64,000 bases of DNA, taken from NCBI GenBank assembly GCA_016926255.1, contig JAFGOY010000033.1:186001-250000 (forward strand). The letters are read 5' to 3'. Both the position numbers and the translations under genes were made by a program. This stretch comes from Anaerolineae bacterium. GTDB taxonomy: Bacteria > Chloroflexota > Anaerolineae > Aggregatilineales > UBA3940. Positions within the stretch are counted from its first letter, which is position 1. Each line of letters begins with the position of its first letter. The notes under the pieces are model-generated. The model saw only the letters and a list, made by a program, of their open reading frames with translations. It made no database searches and was not told the origin of the DNA. Below, piece by piece: positions 18,106-47,403 of this stretch.

Positions 18106-18220
18106 GATTGTAGCCTGGGGGCTGTGTAGAACCCGCTTACAACAATTCATCACAAAAAAAGATATGCCGTCCCCCTTTGCTAAGGGGGAAAAGCATTTCG
18201 CTCTGCGAAATGCAGGGGGC
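18106..18220. repeat. modular palindromic repeats upstream of the YfhO gene
   Basis: This gap holds two repeat modules. TTGTAGCCTGGGG begins near 18108 and recurs at 29711 and 40911. At 18171-18220 a C-run/G-run pair brackets a perfect hairpin, GCATTTCGC (18193-18201) with GCGAAATGC (18205-18213) and loop TCT. The architecture matches the repeats at 44467 and 47353, although the inner palindrome differs. Confidence 0.7.
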
Positions 18221-38263: not shown

Positions 38264-39664
38264 ATGAGTGTTTTCAATGGCAAACGGCTGACCAATGCGA
38301 CCTTCAAGCTGGATGTGGAGCGGATGCGGCGCGGCTGGTATTCCGATAAATATTTCGAAAATATTGGCCATATGCTGGCCGTGCTCAATGAAAAAGGCTA
38401 TACGTTCACCGGGGGAAGTCCCCGTCTGCCCGATTCTAAGATCAAGAGCATACCGGTCGGCGATACCGAAGTCGAGATTCAGTGGTTCACCCGTCGTCAG
38501 CCCTACGCGCTCGTCGCCGGAGTCGACAAAGCCCTCTCGATGATCGCCTACTGCGCGGGTGCTTTCGACTCTGCCGGGCGATTCCAGTCGGCCTGGGAAA
38601 ACCTCGAAGTCGAAGCGGTGCAGGATGGCGTATTTGCCGATTATGACGGCGATCCCCGAAATGTCCGGCCTGTTCTCCGTGTTCGCGGAATCTATCGCCA
38701 TTTCGCGGTGCTTGAGACGCCAACCCTCGGCATTCTTTCCCGCGCCAGCCGCATCGCGACCAATGTCTACAACACGTTGAAGGCCGCGCGCGGCAAGCCG
38801 ATTTTGTTCTTCCCCGCCCGGTTTGATGTCCACGAGGTGCAGGCCGCCGATGGCTATGCCTACGATATTGCCGTCAATCGCTACAATCTCGATTTTCACG
38901 GGCAGGTCAAGAGTTTCGTCAGCACCGACGCCCAGGGCGACTGGTGGGGCGGATTCGGCGGTGGAACCGTCCCCCATTCGGTGATTGCCTGTTTCCTGGC
39001 GAATACCACCGAGGCTATGCTCTGCTTTGCCGATACCCAGCCTCCCGAAGTGCCCCGCATTGCCCTGGTCGATTTCAACAACGATTCGGTCGGAACGTCC
39101 CTCAGAGTCCTGAAAGCTATGTTTGCCCGTTTCCGCGAATTGAAGCAGGCCGGTTCCGATGTGGAAGCCGAGAAGTTCCGGCTCTACGGCGTCCGGCTCG
39201 ATACCAGCGGCAGCATGCGCGATGCGTCACTCGACCCCATCGGCGCCCCGGCCCTCGATCTGGGTGTCAATCCCCGACTGGTCGTCGCAGTGCGCCAGGC
39301 GCTCGACAGCGCCTGGGAAAGTTGGGATATCCCGGCTGATCTGGAAGAAGAGGCGAAAAGCTACTGCCGTGAGGTTAAAATTGTGGTCAGCGGTGGGTTC
39401 AACCCGGAGAAGATCGAGCGATTTGAACGCCTCGGCGTTCCGGCTGATATCTATGGAGTGGGGTCGAGTCTGATGGCGAATGACGATGCGACCAATACCG
39501 ATTTCACCGCCGATGTCGTCCGTGTGAAAGTCAACAATGACTGGATCGACATGGGTAAAATTGGCCGCGTCGCCTGTGATAATCCCGATCTTGAGCCTGT
39601 CCTGCACGATTACGCTGAACGCGAAGACTGCTGCGCCGACTCGGATGCCAACTCAGGGCGCTGA
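38264..39664 (+). CDS. pncB: nicotinate phosphoribosyltransferase
   Basis: A 466-residue enzyme making nicotinate mononucleotide from nicotinate and PRPP, the first step of NAD salvage by the Preiss-Handler route. The phosphorylated His loop is GGGTVPHSVI and the PRPP side is YGVRLDTSGSMRD; IVVSGGFNPEKIERF forms the product site. GAGG lies nine bases before the ATG. It is probably in one unit with nrtR. The acidic C-terminus with two Cys (REDCCADSD) is unusual but short. The downstream gap is filled by palindromic repeats. Confidence 0.93.
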   Translation: MSVFNGKRLTNATFKLDVERMRRGWYSDKYFENIGHMLAVLNEKGYTFTGGSPRLPDSKIKSIPVGDTEVEIQWFTRRQPYALVAGVDKALSMIAYCAGAFDSAGRFQSAWENLEVEAVQDGVFADYDGDPRNVRPVLRVRGIYRHFAVLETPTLGILSRASRIATNVYNTLKAARGKPILFFPARFDVHEVQAADGYAYDIAVNRYNLDFHGQVKSFVSTDAQGDWWGGFGGGTVPHSVIACFLANTTEAMLCFADTQPPEVPRIALVDFNNDSVGTSLRVLKAMFARFRELKQAGSDVEAEKFRLYGVRLDTSGSMRDASLDPIGAPALDLGVNPRLVVAVRQALDSAWESWDIPADLEEEAKSYCREVKIVVSGGFNPEKIERFERLGVPADIYGVGSSLMANDDATNTDFTADVVRVKVNNDWIDMGKIGRVACDNPDLEPVLHDYAEREDCCADSDANSGR

Positions 39665-39716
39665 TCCCGGCAAAAGCAGGCAGATAACCCGGTGAACAAA
39701 TCGTGTCAAAGCAGGA

Positions 39717-39943
39717 CCAACCCTGATCGTCCCCTGTGGGGGAGATGGCGAACCTCCGGTTCGTTATCGGGGGTGGACGTTTTGGCGTAGCCAAAACTCC
39801 CAGTAATCCGCCGCAGGCGGATTGACGATGGGCCGTAGGCCCAGAGGGGGTGATTCTTCACGCGCAGAGTCGGGTGATTCATGATCGCCCCCAAGTCTGG
39901 GGGAGATGGACGACGAAGTCGGCCAGAGGGGGTTGATCTTCAC
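39717..39943. repeat. array of palindromic repeat modules after pncB
   Basis: 227 bp with no gene except a few bases of the convergent lipoprotein gene. There are at least four perfect hairpins: CGAACC/GGTTCG (39749-39763), TTTTGGC/GCCAAAA (39780-39796, loop GTA), AATCCGCC/GGCGGATT (39805-39823, loop GCA) and TGGGCC/GGCCCA (39829-39843, loop GTA). GGGGGAGATGG occurs twice (about 39737 and 39899) and AGAGGGGGT twice. The module start CCAACCCTGATC recurs at 44386. Confidence 0.8.
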
Positions 39944-40833
39944 CAATCAACCTTCACTCTTTTCCCATCAATCCACCGATACACATACACCGGCGCATCG
40001 ATCCGCCGCCCGTCCGCGCCAAACTGTAGATCACTTGCAGGCGTATTTTCGACATTCCCGCCTACCGACTCGACCGCCATCTTGATTGCCAGCCACGTCG
40101 CCTGATAGGCATTGATCGCCAGTGGCCCCGCACCGATCCCCAGGTTGCCTTCCTCATATCCGGCTGTGAATGTTTCCAGCGTTTCCGGCGTCAGGAACGC
40201 CTCGCTTGAATCCTGCGGGTATGCCGACCCGGTTACATACGCCGCCCCGTCTATCTGATCGCCCACCAGCGCTGCGAACTGCCCCAGCCCATACCCCGGC
40301 CCGCCGATCACTTGTCTGTCATTGGCTTCGAGAATGGCATCTAACTGGCTGGCCTCCTCGATCACATCCCCCGCTGCCTCGATATTCAGCGTGAAGACTG
40401 CTTCCTGTTCCTGTACCGCCGTCCGTAATTCCCCCAGCGACGGGGCGAGGTTGTACACCCCCGGCGCATTCTCTATGTCACCCGTTGTGAACGTGATCAG
40501 TGGCAGCCCTGCTGCCTCATAGATCGGCTGCGCGGTGAGTGTCGTTTCTTCCCGCCAGTGCCCGATCACGGCGACCACGTCCGGGTCGAGTGCCAGCTTT
40601 TTGGCCTGTTCGATGGCCTTGTCCGGGTCGCCGCCGTCGTCATAAGCCACCAGTTCGACCGCCAATCCGCTCCCCGCGCTTTCTGCCGCGTACTCCCTGA
40701 TCGCCAGCCGCGCTGCCGGGATTACGTCGTAGCCGATCTCCCGGTAGCGTCCCTCGAACGGCGCGACCAACCCGATCTTGACGATCTCCGGCGTTGTCCT
40801 GATGCACCCTGTCAGGGAAACGATCAGCAGCAT
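39940..40833 (-). CDS. periplasmic-binding-protein-like lipoprotein (Leu/Ile/Val-type), orphan
   Basis: A 297-residue type I periplasmic binding fold protein of the branched-chain amino-acid family. Motifs are VKIGLVAPFEGRYREIG, AYDDGGDPDKAIEQAKKL and VAVIGHWREETTLT. A short signal ends in LTGC (lipobox Cys about 10 from the ATG at 40833). The signal lacks the usual basic start, and the frame continues open for 96 more codons into the hairpin array upstream. No Shine-Dalgarno is seen, so the true start is uncertain. No permease or ATPase gene is nearby, so it is an orphan sensor or receptor. The ligand is unknown. Confidence 0.75.
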   Translation of the reverse strand: MLLIVSLTGCIRTTPEIVKIGLVAPFEGRYREIGYDVIPAARLAIREYAAESAGSGLAVELVAYDDGGDPDKAIEQAKKLALDPDVVAVIGHWREETTLTAQPIYEAAGLPLITFTTGDIENAPGVYNLAPSLGELRTAVQEQEAVFTLNIEAAGDVIEEASQLDAILEANDRQVIGGPGYGLGQFAALVGDQIDGAAYVTGSAYPQDSSEAFLTPETLETFTAGYEEGNLGIGAGPLAINAYQATWLAIKMAVESVGGNVENTPASDLQFGADGRRIDAPVYVYRWIDGKRVKVDW

Positions 40834-40850
40834 ACAGTATACAAGTGTGG

Positions 40851-41036
40851 GGGCGCAGCGTGCTGCGCCCGGAAGTCGCCGAAAGCGACGGCGCGACCGC
40901 AGGTCGCGGATTGTAGCCTGGGGCTTTAGCCCCAGGAACCGGGGCTCCAGCTTCGGTAAACCCCAACATTCCGCTCCCGCCCCCTTGAGGGGGAGGGGGC
41001 AGCCGTTTTGCGGCTGCTGGGAGGGGGTGAAAACGT
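40851..41036. repeat. tandem hairpin array between mltG and the lipoprotein gene
   Basis: Perfect hairpins in a row: GGGCGCAG/CTGCGCCC (40851-40870), GTCGC/GCGAC (40875-40889), GCGACC/GGTCGC (40893-40907, loop GCA), CCTGGGGCT/AGCCCCAGG (40917-40936), and GCAGCCG/CGGCTGC (40999-41017) inside a C-run/G-run frame (40978-41036). TTGTAGCCTGGGGCT at 40911 is one of three copies in the window. Confidence 0.85.
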
Positions 41037-41044
41037 CGTTGTCT

Positions 41045-42253
41045 TTACGGGCATGCATTGTTGAGATGCTCTTCGAATGTCTCCGCGAATACGTGCCGAC
41101 CGCTCCCGTCGCACGCCGCACGGAAATAGAAATAGGTTGTCTCCGCCGGGTAGATCACCGCCTGTATTGACGACAGCCCTGGGTTGGCTATCGGACCCGG
41201 CGGCAGTCCCTCGTGGAGATACAGATTGTATGCCGAGTCGACCGTGTAATAATCATCCTGAGTCAGGTTCAGATTCCACCACTCGCCGCTGTCGTACTGG
41301 TAGCCCATGGCGTACTGCACGGTTGGATCGGCTTCCAGTTTCATCCCACTTGCCAACCGGTTTAAGTACACGCTTGCTATCGTTGGGCGTTCTTCGGCGA
41401 CTGCAGCTTCTCGTTCCACAATCGACGCCACCGTCACTACCTCGAACATTGTAAAGCCCTGCCCGGCTGCGTCGGCCCGCATTTGCATCGTCACCTGCCG
41501 GTCGAAGTTTTCGATCATCCGCGTCACCAGGTCAGCCGCCGTTGCGTCGATGGTCAGGCGGTAGGTGTCGGGGAAGAGATAGCCTTCCAGTGTTACATTG
41601 GCCGGCAGATCGGTCCGAACCGGCGAATCGGCGGGGAGCGCGTTGGCGTTTACCGTCACCGCCAGGAACTCCGCGCCGGTAAACGGCAAAGTCCCCTCCT
41701 GGTCGATCCAATCTGCGATCTGCTCCCGCCGCCATCCTTCCGTGATCCTGACCGTGATCTCCGGTGGCTGCGCGTCGGTGAGTGTCGTTGCGATTTCGGA
41801 GATGGTCATGCTCGCCGAAAGTTCGTAGAACCCGGCCTCCAGTTGAACGTCCAGCCCATAGTAGCGCAGGTAGTTACGAAACAGGTCTGCATCGCTGATC
41901 AGGTTTTTGGCCGCCAGTTGTTCACTGATCTGGCCCGCCGATTCGCCGCTTACGATTTCGAACTGTTGGAGCGTTTCGTCGTTGCTAACCGGGGTATTGA
42001 GTGCCTCCTCGTTCAACGATAGGTAGCCGCCCAATGCCATTGCTTCCAATGCGCCCAGGTCCGGGTTGATTGGCAGATCGAGCGGCACGCTGGCCGTCTG
42101 CCCGCTCTGGTTGAATGTCCTGACCAGCAGCGCCCCGGAAACGCCGAGCAGCCCGACGACGATACAGAGGATCAGCAGCCGCACGGCGATCTGTGCGGCG
42201 CTCAGCGGTTTACGGGATGTCTCTGAACGCTTCGAGTGGCTGTCCCGGTTCAT
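41045..42253 (-). CDS. mltG: endolytic transglycosylase MltG
   Basis: A 402-residue membrane-anchored enzyme (single helix about 22-44) of the YceG/MltG family, which cleaves nascent peptidoglycan strands and terminates glycan growth. LEGYLFPDTYRL, the catalytic-Glu motif VASIVEREA, and DSAYNLYLHEGLPPGPIANPGL are conserved. A LysM-like subdomain precedes it (about 95-150). It overlaps ruvX by 44 nt, an unusually long overlap for a start at ATG 42253, but no nearer downstream Met exists before the membrane helix. This implies a working peptidoglycan wall. It is part of a three-gene overlapping operon. Confidence 0.92.
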   Translation of the reverse strand: MNRDSHSKRSETSRKPLSAAQIAVRLLILCIVVGLLGVSGALLVRTFNQSGQTASVPLDLPINPDLGALEAMALGGYLSLNEEALNTPVSNDETLQQFEIVSGESAGQISEQLAAKNLISDADLFRNYLRYYGLDVQLEAGFYELSASMTISEIATTLTDAQPPEITVRITEGWRREQIADWIDQEGTLPFTGAEFLAVTVNANALPADSPVRTDLPANVTLEGYLFPDTYRLTIDATAADLVTRMIENFDRQVTMQMRADAAGQGFTMFEVVTVASIVEREAAVAEERPTIASVYLNRLASGMKLEADPTVQYAMGYQYDSGEWWNLNLTQDDYYTVDSAYNLYLHEGLPPGPIANPGLSSIQAVIYPAETTYFYFRAACDGSGRHVFAETFEEHLNNACP

Positions 42254-44354: not shown

Positions 44355-44428
44355 AGCCCGGTGCTTTAGCGCCGGGATAGATGATCCAACCCTGATCACC
44401 CCCTGTGGGGGTAGGGCCAGCGGGGGTG
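44355..44428. repeat. repeat modules after alaS (first block)
   Basis: Contains a CCCGGTGC/GCGCCGGG palindrome around 44357-44375 and then CCAACCCTGATC followed by CCCCCTGTGGGGG and a final CGGGGGTG. The second part repeats the start of the array at 39717. The rest of the 333-bp gap 44216-44548 shows no gene. Confidence 0.65.
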
Positions 44429-44466: not shown

Positions 44467-44517
44467 CCTGCCCCCTGAAAGGGGGAAGTGGCGAACCGCA
44501 GGTTCGTCGAAGGGGGT
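44467..44517. repeat. 51-bp palindromic repeat, copy downstream of alaS
   Basis: The module is a C-run arm, a G-run, GTGGCGAACC-GCA-GGTTCG hairpin and closing AGGGGGT. It is identical to the copy at 47353-47403 except one base in the hairpin loop (GCA here, GTA there). Same orientation, on the other side of alaS. Confidence 0.9.
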
Positions 44518-44548
44518 TGGAGGCTCTATTCACGAATGAAACGCAATA

Positions 44549-47328: not shown

Positions 47329-47352
47329 TGCATGTCAGCCCATCGATCAATC

Positions 47353-47403
47353 CCTGCCCCCTGAAAGGGGGAAGTGGCGAACCGTAGGTTCGTCGAAGGG
47401 GGT
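47353..47403. repeat. 51-bp palindromic repeat, copy upstream of alaS
   Basis: 50 of 51 positions are identical to the copy at 44467-44517, in the same orientation, 2.9 kb apart. The hairpin is CGAACC/GGTTCG with loop GTA. Confidence 0.9.

Follow-up and report, generated by a model that had tools for sequence, protein, structure and literature searches.

A dispersed intergenic repeat with mirror-symmetric purine arms and a variable hairpin: a probable variant of the bacterial intrastrand DNA triplex motif

Downstream of pncB in an Anaerolineae-like genome of the Chloroflexota, a dense array of small hairpins (39717-39943) is made up of two copies, in tandem, of an intergenic repeat that is dispersed through the genome and probably belongs to the class II, purine-motif type of intrastrand triplex represented in Escherichia coli by BoxC, PIT and TM. 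Coordinates refer to the window, that is, the whole stretch of 64,000 nucleotides that was analyzed. Read on its G-rich strand, a unit runs in the order Y, loop 1, R1, TG, hairpin, C and R2: a pyrimidine arm Y (ATCGCCCCC) and a loop precede the purine arm R1 (GGGGGAxyTG), and a variable hairpin separates this from the second purine arm R2 (CyxAGGGGG). R1 and R2 are mirror repeats, R2 being R1 read backwards and uncomplemented, while Y complements R1. The sequence itself shows that the copies form a family, that R1 and R2 are mirror images, that all three arms co-vary, that the hairpin is variable and that C-GNA-G loops are confined to one strand.

The role of intrastrand DNA triplexes in living bacteria has been a question for two decades, during which folding in vitro was established but E. 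coli yielded no function for them. RNA structures were established by evidence of the same type as co-variation among three strands, which in this repeat is accessible from sequence alone. If the triplex reading is true, a large repeat class would be added and in vivo tests could be designed cleanly; a separate question would then arise, namely how otherwise identical frames exchange their hairpins.

The array and its surroundings

The array sits between pncB (38264-39664, forward strand), whose protein has its nearest named relatives in Chloroflexota and Anaerolineae genomes, and a convergent gene (39940-41121, reverse strand). A sequence-only reading had described here a dense run of perfect hairpins with 3-nt loops, recurring words and one architecture with shuffled modules, and this description holds: the loops are TCC, GTA, GCA and GTA, with a fifth, imperfect hairpin; TGGGGGAGATGG (39737 and 39898) and CCAGAGGGGG (39841 and 39923) each occur twice; and hairpin modules are interchangeable among copies. 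That reading overlooked how the arms are ordered (mirror arms plus a C-rich complement), the co-variation of four dialects described below and additional copies elsewhere in the window. As single-stranded DNA, 39717-39943 folds better than 200 of 200 shuffles (z -5.3).

Unit 1 (39717-39850; this and all following features of the array are on the forward strand) is a composite copy with more degenerate arms, in which the Y arm, R1, four hairpins within loop 2 and R2 follow one another; loci L002-L006 of the same genome match it. It opens with a conserved left end, CCAACCCTGATC (39717-39728; flank consensus gccaacCcTGATCG from 39 copies of the AGA dialect), and continues with an imperfect C-rich Y arm, ATCGTCCCC (39726-39734), and the R1 arm GGGGGAGA plus TG (39738-39747). 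The first hairpin of loop 2 is GCGAACC-TCC-GGTTCGT (39748-39764; core GAACC-TCC-GGTTC, 39750-39762). The next two are nested in a double-hairpin module that recurs elsewhere in the genome (39774-39830) and reads TGGACG, the hairpin TTTTGGC-GTA-GCCAAAA (as GTTTTGGC-GTA-GCCAAAAC, 39779-39797), CTCCCAGT, the hairpin AATCCGCC-GCA-GGCGGATT (39805-39823) and GACGATG. The fourth, GGGCC-GTA-GGCCC (39830-39842), has a C-GNA-G loop and adjoins the R2 arm AGAGGGGG (39843-39850), the mirror of R1. A linker beginning TGATTCTTCACGCGCAGAGTCG (39851-39881), which resembles those between tandem copies elsewhere, to judge by repeat D1 and by the upstream and downstream flanks of other copies, leads to unit 2 (39882-39932). 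This second unit is a regular copy, TGATCGCCCCC (Y), AAGTCT, GGGGGAGA (R1), TG, hairpin and AGAGGGGG (R2), with its Y arm GATCGCCCCC at 39883-39892, R1 at 39899-39906, the variable hairpin GGACGAC-GAA-GTCGGCC (imperfect, one mismatch) at 39908-39924 and R2, again the mirror of R1, at 39925-39932.

Three further forward-strand copies lie in the window: a degenerate one, CCAACCCTGATCACCCCC-TGT-GGGGG...GGGGGTG (44386-44428), and two of the AAG/GAA dialect with the hairpins GCGAACC-GCA-GGTTCGT (44467-44520) and GCGAACC-GTA-GGTTCGT (47352-47402). A divergent hairpin-looped copy was also seen at 18170-18219 (TCCCCC...GGGGGAAAA, the hairpin GCATTTCGC-TCT-GCGAAATGC, then AGGGGG). The G-rich element at 40978-41029 seems to follow this plan in a different frame, its mirror arms (GGGGGAGGG and GGGAGGGGG) being longer and enclosing the hairpin AGCCG-TTTTG-CGGCT. 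Two more palindromes occupy 40851-40936, GGGCGCAG-CGTG-CTGCGCCC and CCTGGGGC-TTTA-GCCCCAGG, the latter with a sub-threshold match to the Acido-Lenti-1 RNA (24.7 bits; gathering threshold 37).

Copies, arm dialects and the loop-2 hairpin

Copies were counted in the whole genome (4,611,464 bases in 82 contigs, 96% complete), and structural statistics were drawn from about 884 kb of it. The core pattern GGGGGANNTGN{9,29}CNNAGGGGG has 131 exact matches, against 0 for the reversed pattern used as control, and blastn returned 63 matches to the array, so that the chance cluster which an absence of copies elsewhere would have implied can be set aside. The suggestion of a REP/MITE-like family therefore stands as far as a dispersed repeat family is concerned, and is unsupported in its REP/RAYT part, which is taken up below. 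There is no strand bias (60 matches forward, 71 reverse). Relatives of the same family hold 0-6 core-pattern matches each, a few distant genomes are copy-rich (G052 with 99, G318 with 74, G441 with 38, G443 with 23) and most others have none or one, making the distribution patchy. According to the ORFs called in this analysis, 51 of 55 copies are intergenic; convergent gaps hold 7 of these 51 and are not enriched. Of the copies between tandem genes, 25 carry the G-rich strand opposite the gene strand and 11 on the same strand as the genes, a mild bias that the model proposed below leaves without explanation. The pattern is absent from the 600 nt that follow pncB in all 15 relatives examined, indicating that the association with pncB is incidental.

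Four dialects occur in this genome, with xy being GA, AG, AA or GG. The letters beside the G runs of R1 and R2 accordingly read AGA/AGA, AAG/GAA, AAA/AAA and AGG/GGA, and those of Y before its C run read TCG, CTG, TTG and CCT, the first two complementing the dialect letters every time. When these letters were left free in matching, mirror symmetry over all three was found in 69 of 79 hairpin-bearing copies (shuffle mean 25, maximum 37), and 65 of 70 copies had a Y complementary to R1 at the two dialect positions (1000 shuffles: mean 27, maximum 37), although related copies are not independent, so that the shuffle figures overstate significance and the counts of dialects and genomes are sounder. 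Among the 70 copies with a C-run, agreement extends to all three arms in 62, across the four dialects.

The mirror rule extends to other DNA: it was observed in 45 of 49 hairpin-bearing matches at other Chloroflexota loci, in 27 of 27 in G052 (three dialects) and in 85 of 118 in virus and prophage contigs, against 3 of 46 hairpin-less contig matches, which do not follow it. A finder free of the frame, which sought nine-letter asymmetric purine arms preceded by a complementary arm (at most one mismatch in Y) over about 850 kb of the present genome, returned 62 mirror places, 0 direct-repeat places and 1 inverted-repeat place, with 0 in shuffled DNA. In a small set from other members of the order, where one dialect accounts for nearly all copies, the agreement of Y for that reason did not exceed shuffling. 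Also weighing against the triplex reading, the arms are short (8-9 triads), and in three of the four dialects Y holds a constant G opposite an A of R1. Deviating dialects, AGC/TGA and AGC/GGA, were also encountered, along with single-arm deviants in G032 and G407. AGC/TGA is recurrent in G318 and in virus contigs (e.g., L185), where it is combined with several different stems. This dialect (GGGGGAGCTG...CTGAGGGGG, with Y GCTCCCCC) places a C of R1 opposite a T of R2, possibly a tolerated T.C.G triad.

Loop 1 is mostly 2-6 nt in this genome, and loop 2 is a hairpin of at least 10 nt. In genomes of family f9 (L196-L218 from G180, G155 and G212), a variable hairpin (CCCCCAAATTCGAC...GTCGCATTTGGGGG) takes the place of loop 1 as well, suggesting that both triplex loops can carry hairpins. 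The 69 mirror-type copies of the present genome contain 27 distinct hairpin 5' arms, yet 336 of 378 stem positions are paired, compared with 64% when the arms were dealt anew. Copies with an identical frame (for example, loop 1 AATTCT) bear wholly different stems, as though stems were replaced whole. GNA triloops account for 55 of 63, 26 of 29 and 29 of 34 in three sets, TNC for 0 in all of them, and the triloop is closed by a C-G pair in 60 of the 63. Most copies present a C-GNA-G loop, always on the G-rich strand. GNA is an unusually stable DNA loop according to literature quoted in PMC6479982. Since the hairpin of the opposite strand would carry a TNC loop, it would be the G-rich strand that folds, and would do so as DNA; together, the one-strand C-GNA-G loops and the mirror arms point to folding of single-stranded DNA rather than RNA.

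The double-hairpin module of unit 1 was found in eight element-type copies among the nine listed, one of them standing alone. It is mostly nested in loop 2 with GATG at its end, in the form ATGGACG, hairpin, CTCCCAGT, hairpin and AACGATG (L119, approximately 2200-2260, and L003, L006, L008 and L021, close to the matches at these loci), and it is possibly an element in its own right that inserts into loop 2. An extension of the hairpin by sheared tandem G.A pairs, tried by hand, fitted the AGA dialect only and was rejected.

A candidate fold and its rivals

To judge by its arms, the layout matches that of a class II purine-motif triplex (C.G*G, T.A*A), as in E. coli BoxC, PIT and TM. Y, R1 and R2 are ordered on one strand, with Y complementary and R2 a mirror; the GGGGGAGA arms, in which Y has a single, constant G.A mismatch, lie within the class II stem rule (at least 6-7 triads, at most one mismatch); and the copies are intergenic without strand bias, as that class prescribes. 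Loop 2 departs from the class II range (1-6 nt; 3 nt in TM-ECO) in being a hairpin, which would make the repeat a variant and not a typical member. In the mechanism we propose, the G-rich strand would become single-stranded as a lagging-strand template, in a repair gap or as a displaced strand; Y would pair with R1 by Watson-Crick bonds, and R2, folding back via the hairpin, would make reverse-Hoogsteen contacts with the purine face of R1 (G*G.C, A*A.T, T*A.T). The C-GNA-G hairpin would compactly bridge R1 and R2, its sequence being free as long as a hairpin still forms. Such a triplex, if formed in cells, could transiently stall DNA polymerase and cause local instability, and copies may spread and exchange hairpins through replication (template switching) or recombination at such pauses instead of a RAYT transposase. 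More tentatively, and beyond what we would yet expect to hold, hairpin-bridged triplexes might constitute a widespread class of bacterial repeats, in several Chloroflexota families, alphaproteobacteria and virus or prophage contigs, with a fold kept under selection as judged by three-strand co-variation, a swappable hairpin and RAYT-free spread through single strands.

A REP/REPIN-like element mobilized by a RAYT, a Y1 tyrosine transposase acting on single-stranded hairpins, would also be short, intergenic, palindromic and high in copy number, and the conserved hairpin foot GATG..CAGAG, the loops of single-stranded-DNA type and the PF01797 proteins in other copy-bearing genomes suit it. The RAYT gene for which the sequence-only reading proposed a test was not found, however: PF01797 (RAYT / IS200 TnpA) gave 0 matches in the present genome, with its 131 copies and 96% completeness, and 0 in G318, which has 74 copies and belongs to another family, whereas 5 of 14 control genomes scored. 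REP hairpins have a conserved stem sequence, while the stem is the variable part here; the foot reads GATG/AGTG ... CAGAG/CGAAG and not a GTAG/CGTC-type tag; and mobilization leaves the mirror arms and complementary C arm without explanation. Nor did the suggested target-site duplications emerge at fixed offsets above shuffles among 69 copies with ill-defined ends, and the candidate MITE termini (CCAACCC/GGGTTG) are weak and poorly delimited. A RAYT-borne element is thus decidedly improbable. The same small probability attaches to an RNA element, either a transcription terminator, as had been proposed, or a stabilizer of mRNA 3' ends built from clustered hairpins. The repeat is intergenic; at pncB it occupies a convergent gap and has a terminator-like match at 39928-39955; and 39717-39943 also folds as RNA (z -3.9). 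Against this, convergent gaps are not preferred, the G-rich strand more often lies opposite the genes, and neither the GNA/TNC strand bias nor the mirror arms have an RNA rationale. Rfam gave no match within the array, only two sub-threshold ones nearby, and the terminator-like match, the single one in 39500-40100, lies at the array end largely outside the hairpins, so that the array does not qualify as an intrinsic terminator (G+C-rich hairpin plus T run).

The G runs might alternatively be read as a G-quadruplex or a protein-binding repeat, with mirror arms arising from a bound protein or G-G contacts and not from a triplex. Each array contains several G5 runs, and mirror purine arms would permit homopurine contacts as well; a G-quadruplex, though, requires neither a complementary C arm nor matching A/G letters, yet Y co-varies with R1, and we hold this reading to be highly improbable. 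Very little credence is due to the idea that the co-variation reflects only the shared ancestry of four subfamilies under no structural constraint. Each dialect in this genome is indeed a subfamily with its own flanks, but ordinary duplication does not yield mirror copies, the mirror rule recurs in other families, in the three dialects of G052 and in virus and prophage contigs, and the frame-free search recovered mirror instead of direct repeats. The hairpin-bridged triplex remains the best explanation.

Comparison with known repeats and triplex motifs

Like REP, REPIN and BIME sequences, the repeat is a short, dispersed, extragenic palindrome that forms composite arrays; it differs from them in its unconserved stem, its mirror arms and C arm, and the lack of a RAYT match in its own genome. 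Closer in plan are certain rhizobial repeats, CCTTCTCCCC-loop-GGGGAGAAGG-T-GGCCGGCAGGCC-GGATGAGGGG, which share the order Y, R1, hairpin and R2 with a T opposite A in R2, and a query of this kind matched 322 plasmid records. These intergenic palindromic repeats, which we presume may be RIME-type, differ from the present one in their longer arms and T.A*T position and are otherwise unrelated in sequence.

The nearest published counterpart is the class II intrastrand triplex, composed of Y, a purine arm and a reverse-Hoogsteen arm (Holder et al., 2015; PMC4666352). The E. coli TM motif (BoxC, PIT), CCCTCNCCC N3-6 GGGNGAGGG N3 GGGNGAGGG, is attributed to Hoyne et al. (2000) as cited there; it is intergenic with no strand bias, lies in more variable surroundings and has no promoter or terminator role (PMC4666352). 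BoxC oligonucleotides form triplexes by CD and NMR and PIT elements block polymerase in vitro, whereas footprinting in E. coli cells revealed no stable triplex at the motif; purine-motif triplexes do not form in RNA (PMC4666352). The present repeat resembles BoxC, PIT and TM-ECO in its Y-R1-R2 order on one strand, its G/C-rich purine motif and short loop 1, its intergenic location free of strand bias and, as in the "mm" E. coli motifs, a G.A mismatch in the Y.R1 duplex. Unlike TM-ECO, it has four co-varying arm dialects in one genome, and what appears new relative to the published motifs is that loop 2, instead of 3 nt, is a hypervariable hairpin of about 10-30 nt, with up to four hairpins. 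The published finder admits loops of 1-6 nt only and would therefore miss the hairpin form. In Sinorhizobium DNA, BoxC-type elements (3-nt loop) and hairpin-type elements occur within 49 kb of each other, which ties the two forms together.
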